From a virus, in IMG/VR virus record IMGVR_UViG_3300017708_000520, positions 1-47,516 of that record: a DNA stretch of 47,516 nt, one strand, 5' to 3'. This document shows, one piece after another, positions 559 to 1,616 of the stretch. The position numbers were made by a program, and so were the translations under genes. The first letter of the stretch is position 1; each line of letters begins with the position of its first letter. The notes beneath the pieces are model-generated. The model did no database searches and was not told the origin of the DNA. It saw only the letters and a list, made by a program, of their open reading frames with translations.

Positions 559-623
559 GGTATAAACCTTTCATATGACGTTATATCGGTCTTATTTGTT
601 TGCCGATAAACAACTTATGTCAT

Positions 624-640
624 GTTAGTGCGGCACTAAC
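624..640. promoter_or_regulatory. Operator-like palindrome 1
   Basis: GTTAGTGC-G-GCACTAAC is a perfect inverted repeat with 8-base arms around one central base. It is the typical shape of a site for a dimeric helix-turn-helix repressor. It differs from the second palindrome only at its centre. It lies about 65 bases upstream of the leftward gene start. Confidence 0.6.
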
Positions 641-666
641 AATAGATAATGCCCAGATAATAATAC

Positions 667-693
667 TTGATAGTACTTGTCACTATCTACAAT
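667..693 (+). promoter_or_regulatory. Possible sigma70-type promoter between the palindromes
   Basis: TTGATA at 667-672 and TACAAT at 688-693 resemble -35 and -10 boxes, but the spacer is only 15 bases, shorter than the usual 16-18. It sits exactly between the two palindromes and overlaps a weaker inverted repeat, GATAGT/ACTATC (669-674 and 682-687). If real, it would drive the late operon with a leader of roughly 320 bases. The call rests on pattern alone. Confidence 0.25.
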
Positions 694-696
694 TCT

Positions 697-713
697 GTTA
701 GTGGGCCACTAAC
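697..713. promoter_or_regulatory. Operator-like palindrome 2
   Basis: GTTAGTGG-G-CCACTAAC is a perfect inverted repeat with 8-base arms. Its outer seven bases on each side match palindrome 1. The two centres (632 and 705) are 73 bases apart, close to seven helical turns, so bound dimers would sit on the same face of the DNA. It starts just downstream of a possible -10 box, where a repressor would cover the transcription start. Confidence 0.6.
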
Positions 714-1022
714 AAAAATCCTGTAACGCTACTCATACCCCACCCCCACCCCGCCTTTGACTGTTTAGGATTCCACACTTCCTTATGTATTACTAATTCA
801 CACAAATAAATCGCATCTCGCCACGTCAGCCCAATAAAAAACTAAATAAAATCAAAGGCTTAGCATTTTATCGCCGATCCACCTCCGGCGGCGTACACAG
901 GAACACCCCCCGTCTTAAAAATAAGTACCCACCTAAAAAATTTTTTGCTACGCTACTGAGTCTTGCGAAATTATATTTTAAGAAGTAAGGTCGTGACATC
1001 GGCAACTAGCCTGCGATAAGAG

Positions 1023-1616
1023 ATGACGCTACATATAACACCAGAAACTGGGGTGCCAGTTGACAAACGAGCGCCAAAAATAGATTTAAAGGACCGCGCT
1101 GCAGCGTGTGCCAAGACTATTTCGCTTCTTTCAGTCCATGGGTTGGACGTAAATACTACCGACGAAGACCGAGATACCGCCGCTGCACTAGCTGTGTCCT
1201 ATGCTGCTGATCCTGATAAGACATCTAAAGCTGTTACAGATAAACGTGCAGCCAGACTTACCCCGGCAGTGATACAGCAGACACATGGTATCTTAGATGA
1301 GTTTGGTCGGAGCGTCGTCGATTCTGCTGTGACTGTAAGGCATCTAGTTACAAACAAACTTATACTGGAGACAGAGAACCCTGACCCGCGAGTACGAATA
1401 AAAGCGTTGGAGTTGTTGGGTAAGATAAGTGATGTGGGGCTGTTTGCAGAGAAAAGCGAAGTTACAATTACGCATCAGACGACAGATGATCTGAAAGAGA
1501 AGCTACGAAAGAAGTTACAAAAGTTAACCGAACCTATAGAACATGTAGAAGATGCGGTGGTGATAGATGCAGACTTTATAGATGTGGATAAGGAACTAGG
1601 GTTAGTAGATGAATAA
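1023..1616 (+). CDS. Putative terminase small subunit
   Basis: This 197-residue protein is the first rightward gene and overlaps the large terminase start by 8 bases, the usual place for a small terminase subunit, which recognises phage DNA for packaging. The sequence is helical. A middle part with RVRIKALELLGKISDVGLF resembles the oligomerisation region of small terminases, and it is followed by a charged stretch (DDLKEKLRKKLQKL) and an acidic tail. I cannot see a clear helix-turn-helix. The ribosome site is weak (GATAAGAG directly before the ATG). The identification leans on gene order. Confidence 0.6.
   Translation: MTLHITPETGVPVDKRAPKIDLKDRAAACAKTISLLSVHGLDVNTTDEDRDTAAALAVSYAADPDKTSKAVTDKRAARLTPAVIQQTHGILDEFGRSVVDSAVTVRHLVTNKLILETENPDPRVRIKALELLGKISDVGLFAEKSEVTITHQTTDDLKEKLRKKLQKLTEPIEHVEDAVVIDADFIDVDKELGLVDE

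Follow-up and report, generated by a model that had tools for sequence, protein, structure and literature searches.

Repeated palindromes of lineage-specific sequence in the early region of an uncultured phage family and their candidate repressor c0

In lambdoid phages the type-specific repressors CI and Cro bind 17-bp palindromic operators in a divergent control region; lambda itself has six operators at two promoters, a helix-turn-helix repressor, and lysogeny. In the cluster A mycobacteriophages (L5 gp71 family) a single repressor acts on an operator within the early left promoter; another 20-30 sites are spread over short gaps between genes and run in the direction of transcription. These stoperators block elongation, and their consensus varies from lineage to lineage along with the repressor (PMC6550527, PMC9283540). 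SPbeta has a repeated motif, SPBRE, in many intergenic regions, whose master repressor MrpR was recognised long after the motif (PMC10516654). The locus described here resembles the lambdoid arrangement in having palindromic candidate operators at a divergent control region, with putative type-specific repressors. With SPbeta it shares a repeated intergenic motif that one master repressor may serve.

The window, which is the whole 47,516-bp stretch of DNA analysed (IMG/VR record IMGVR_UViG_3300017708_000520), has two palindromes between the leftward early gene c0, which starts at position 558, and the rightward terminase genes, which start at 1023 and 1609. The late genes begin with terS (1023-1616, plus strand), coding for the terminase small subunit. 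The preliminary description located 17-bp palindromes at 624-640 and 697-713; both are perfect and correctly positioned, and each extends to 19 bp (TGTTAGTGCGGCACTAACA and TGTTAGTGGGCCACTAACA) with the form TGTTAGTG-NNN-CACTAACA, termed type A. The proximal palindrome, a candidate type A operator (TGTTAGTG-CGG-CACTAACA, 623-641), and the distal one (TGTTAGTG-GGC-CACTAACA, 696-714), neither of which has a strand, are the only copies in the window. Their start-to-start distance is indeed 73 bp, corresponding to 6.95 turns at 10.5 bp per turn. The weaker inverted repeat noticed between them (GATAGT-N7-ACTATC, 669-687, no strand) is present but lost in the nearest relative L111, and is thus probably incidental. 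Visual comparison of its gene order with that of G009, a 62-kb relative, indicates that the early region is missing from the window, which is why the palindrome array and its lineage-specific sequences, described below, initially escaped notice.

A pattern scan of IMG/VR identified at least 120 stretches with the motif, many of them multi-copy, and the c0-terS-terL neighbourhood is common to 54 loci among the matches listed. The palindrome is kept at the same divergent junction in relatives, a conservation that had been proposed for checking. In 108 related loci (844 kb) there are 230 exact type A 19-mers and 107 copies with one mismatch, 91 of which differ at the outermost base only. The same 844 kb, once shuffled, yields one match with three mismatches and neither exact nor one-mismatch copies. 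The palindromes are not chance occurrences. The arms of type A sites are separated by 3 nt (326 sites), 4 nt (35) or 5 nt (4), and never by 0-2 or 6-8 nt.

Relatives have 3-14 copies per early region, mostly at gene junctions. The positions include the c0/terS junction, the space between the stop codon and the ribosome site of downstream genes, mid-gene locations and the first codons of two early genes, where the palindrome reads V-S-x-x-L-T. The sites are confined to early DNA: in loci collected by TerL there are 92 sites in 137 kb of early DNA and 0 in 432 kb of late DNA, and types B and C (see below) are likewise absent from this late DNA. A palindrome is also found inside the DNA polymerase gene, invariant where present and with a completely different sequence at that place in other phages. 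In this gene an 18-nt type A palindrome substitutes 18 nt of homologous coding sequence without any indel, all-or-none between phages (present in L012, L017, L041, L050, L052, L053 and L120).

Other elements accompany the array. Copies of the sequence GA[ATG][AG]CCAGTT(CCT..GTCGCG..GAGCC) number 170 on the early sense strand, compared with 6 on the opposite one, and they frequently precede a ribosome site or follow a palindrome directly (L003:2433; L006:10014, in early orientation; L012:162). Iteron-like AATGTTCG repeats follow palindromes in the c0-c14 intergenic region of many genomes (L030, L065, L092), a possible replication origin. A module composed of DUF3150, a MoxR-like ATPase and a DUF2201 metallopeptidase/VWA protein (c14-c17-c13) is conserved throughout the early region of the family (for instance L138:182-1099 and L137:17674-19951).

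Two candidate explanations were discarded. Promoters of a phage RNA polymerase were rejected because sites fall within genes, past the start codon; the large proteins of the window have no RNA polymerase domain. Binding by a host transcription factor was rejected likewise: type A gives 18 scattered matches (17 one-site loci and one three-site locus) across bacterial and archaeal genomes totalling 257 Gb, and this virtual absence means that the array is not a borrowed host regulon.

The pair at 623-714 had been interpreted as a cooperative, perhaps looping, repressor switch setting early against late genes. A near-identical pair about seven turns apart does occur in the window and in L111, L166 and L168, but these belong to the few relatives with two junction copies, while most have a single palindrome there. 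The spacing is 73, 75 or 76 bp, the last arising from a tandem duplication, and there is no site near the terS start. The isolated 73-bp looping pair is therefore rejected as the conserved feature, an essential role of the pairing lacks support and the spacing is not fixed, and we regard a looping switch as very improbable. What survives of the original proposal is that the sites behave like operators of a phage-encoded regulator. Its action on both sides of the junction does not, since the sites follow the leftward early genes only and late DNA has none.

A promoter had also been proposed between the two palindromes; a consensus scan of the region gives 3 matches against 1.6 expected and hence no statistical support for it. 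By eye, the conserved promoter-like element of the leftward gene overlaps the proximal palindrome instead. This putative c0 promoter (614-642, minus strand), delineated from sequence and conserved blocks, has a -35 TTGTTA (642-637), a 17-bp spacer and a -10 CATAAG (619-614), the -35 and most of the spacer being supplied by the palindrome. A consensus scan scores the c0 element no better than shuffles (mean 8.0 vs 7.7), and sigma-70 promoter scans gave nothing clearly exceeding chance. The palindrome coincides with the promoter-like element in the window, L166, L168, L175, L183 and L184; were the promoter real, occupancy of the site would directly repress c0. In most relatives the junction site is found about 50 bp upstream of the presumed -35 rather than on it. 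The position of the distal palindrome is the one conserved family-wide, about 20 bp from a G-rich block situated upstream of it (GGAATCCTAA...GGCGGGGTGGGGGTGGGGTATG, 735-774, minus strand). This block (GGAGTCCCA...GCGGGGGGTGGGGGTAGGGTATGG) is strongly conserved between terS and the distal palindrome in phages of types A, B and C, and is possibly a packaging, G-quadruplex or regulator site.

The sequence of the palindrome changes from lineage to lineage. In a sample of loci collected by TerL only, without use of the motif, all 52 loci with enough upstream DNA carry an array of type A (23 loci), type B (12), type C (16), or B and C together (1). Type B is TTCGGGCA-NN-TGCCCGAA and type C is [GT]TTAGGGA-NN-TCCCTAA[AC]. 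The three types are nearly always at the same place, adjoining the same G-rich block, although the junction site of certain type B phages directly precedes the c0 ribosome site instead. Wider sets, collected by the early genes DUF3150 and DUF2201 and searched locus by locus for repeated palindromes, bring the number of types to about 16. About a dozen are additional to A, B and C, and some are gapless: the palindrome is uninterrupted and its centre conserved (TTTACGGAATTCCGTAAA, TGTATACATATGTATACA, CCTTACAGCTGTAAGG). Among the 169 loci that have three or more sites, 161 carry a single type. When this 1.6 Mb is shuffled, all types taken together match once, compared with more than a thousand matches observed. 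A few genomes have two types; L371 and L376 combine GTTAGTC and GTTATGC in one early region (5 and 4 copies), perhaps reflecting two regulators or a phage in transition.

This diversity bears on the main rival explanation, that the sites act as RNA, forming 7-8-bp stem-loops in early mRNA by which a phage RNA-binding protein or nuclease represses translation or marks the transcript for decay. It was once the leading idea, since type A spacers of 3, 4 and 5 nt are lengths that a hairpin loop allows and the sites have a polarity along early transcription: an A follows the 3' arm in 341 of 345 type A sites, its 5' partner being T in 256 of 345. Types G, I, J and N have a similar polarity, and the location of sites ahead of ribosome sites or in first codons suits such a role. 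The idea was demoted because the gapless types leave no loop. Within a lineage, moreover, the arms display neither compensatory nor G-U changes and the one common variant breaks a pair, types B and C1 have symmetric flanks without polarity, and local A-richness accounts for part of the polarity. One of the window sites also lies in the presumed promoter, outside its transcript. We hold RNA hairpins to be unlikely.

The site type changes together with c0, which makes this protein the likely repressor. Phages with TerL 99-100% identical and different types (L218/L211, L194/L205, L239/L235) have c0 proteins that are unrelated or barely alignable, while DUF3150 and the MoxR-like ATPase are 50-85% identical across types. 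When pairs are matched for DUF3150 similarity, c0 scores are far higher within a type than between types: at a DUF3150 ratio of 0.9 the c0 score is 0.74 for same-type and 0.03 for different-type pairs, the latter value coming from two pairs. The residual c0 difference is 0.077, and the largest of 500 permutations, in which labels were permuted regardless of phylogeny, reaches 0.044. The coupling is particularly clear between L279 (type D) and L311 (type A). Their early regions are largely similar, with many stretches 80-91% identical, yet their c0 proteins are unrelated and different palindromes occupy the identical junction after a TAA codon. L311 retains two relic copies of type D, as expected of a recent type switch. 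Another c0-linked protein could be the binder; the early proteins also include wHTH, HTH-DUF3310 and MerR-like ones.

That no repressor gene is visible in the window, as the preliminary description had it, no longer holds: the best candidate is c0 itself (P0001, 1-558, minus strand), directly downstream of the sites. It is a leftward early gene cut by the window edge, with 186 amino acids remaining; the L111 protein has 200. The structure prediction is a confident all-helical model (pLDDT 87.7, pTM 0.62). Searches gave c0 no significant Pfam match or recognisable DNA-binding domain, no sequence or fold match in the PDB, no match among BFVD viral structures and none by tblastn in an annotated phage collection. 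Conservation among type A c0 proteins peaks at residues 104-125 (KRYWQQQIGARRNDFKR.L.KR), at 0.78 against an average of 0.48. This Q/R/N-rich stretch (KRYWQQQIGARRNDFK) is placed by the model inside a long helix, and the corresponding stretch of type B c0 reads RKxLQDRRTELLKT.

We privilege the hypothesis, which we consider probable, that the palindromes are operators and stoperator-like sites of c0, which would be an early repressor with an all-helical fold and no known relative that can be detected. A phage-encoded and probably dimeric DNA-binding protein, most likely c0, would bind the palindromes. By binding at its own promoter, c0 would autoregulate. By binding the many sites between and inside other early genes, it would reduce initiation and block elongation, so that early transcription would be arrested in a stoperator-like manner once enough c0 has accumulated. 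An elongation block is indicated because sites lie inside operons with no promoter in evidence. The late genes, devoid of sites, would stay on, and each lineage would have its own pair of c0 and site. The sites, their restriction to early DNA, their lineage-specific sequences and the parallel change of c0 are observed here; direct c0 binding, repression, the roadblock and autoregulation are inferred. Several points count against this reading: the lack of a recognisable DNA-binding domain in c0, a c0 promoter recognised by eye that consensus scoring does not single out, type A spacers of 3, 4 and 5 nt, which are unusual for a rigid dimer, the location of the junction site away from the presumed -35 in most relatives, and the few genomes with two types.

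Proteins resembling ParB, too, bind dispersed palindromes. The sites could serve segregation, an origin or recombination, with c0 or a linked protein binding them, and the iteron-like AATGTTCG repeats near some sites would be in line with this. Their placement, however, keeps to the borders and start codons of early genes and to the direction of these genes, and late DNA has none of them. A Pfam scan of 20 proteins from G009 and the window gave no ParB-like protein, and neither an integrase nor a resolvase is found in 9 records. A role in such DNA processes appears still less probable than RNA hairpins.

The simplest reading remains that c0 is an autoregulating early repressor whose sequence family is new, each lineage having its own set of operators. 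It gives an orphan early protein a likely function, and provides a control logic for a large family of uncultured phages, represented by at least several hundred TerL-bearing contigs. The approximately 16 protein-site specificity pairs constitute a natural data set for the DNA recognition code of a protein without detectable relatives. Should the sites prove to be stoperators of phages that lack lysogeny genes, one would have to ask why virulent phages diversify an immunity-like specificity. The pairing of c0 and palindrome appears to be a novel type of self-recognition in phages. We tentatively put forward, as a possible though rather doubtful extension, that these apparently virulent phages carry hypervariable self-recognition, in which c0 produced in the course of infection would silence the early genes of any co-infecting phage that shares its code. 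Such superinfection immunity without lysogeny would have been diversified by balancing selection into 16 or more specificities within one family and altered by c0 recombination followed by site conversion, with L311 caught halfway.

Neither the motif itself nor the repetition of operators in virulent phages yielded anything specific in literature searches. The closest annotated relatives by TerL (45-47%) are the pelagiphages HTVC023P/HTVC027P and phage DSL-LC04, which share genes with the present family, GroES and DNA polymerase A among them; no comparable repeated palindrome is found in the 50 kb examined of each. Unlike lambda, the present phages have many sites through the early operon, an unrelated protein and no lysogeny genes found. 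SPbeta differs in that MrpR, which has the fold of a tyrosine recombinase, serves to maintain lysogeny, and in that its ChAP-seq peaks are in promoter regions. In behaviour the present system resembles cluster A, with one regulator, one operator and many downstream sites: in both, a site recurs in the short gaps between genes, here 3-14 times per early region, and the site consensus covaries between lineages with the repressor, here the candidate c0. Cluster A sites are nevertheless asymmetric and 13-14 bp long, whereas those described here are perfect 16-20-bp palindromes. The cluster A repressor is monomeric with a helix-turn-helix and a stoperator domain, while c0 has no detectable known fold or gp71 homology. 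Cluster A phages are temperate with an integrase or parABS, and here no match to PF00589 (integrase) or PF00239 (resolvase) is found in 9 records of 35-70 kb, which are possibly incomplete. The c0-palindrome system would thus act as the cluster A stoperators do, but it falls outside their family, since its sites are symmetric and its candidate repressor shows no homology.
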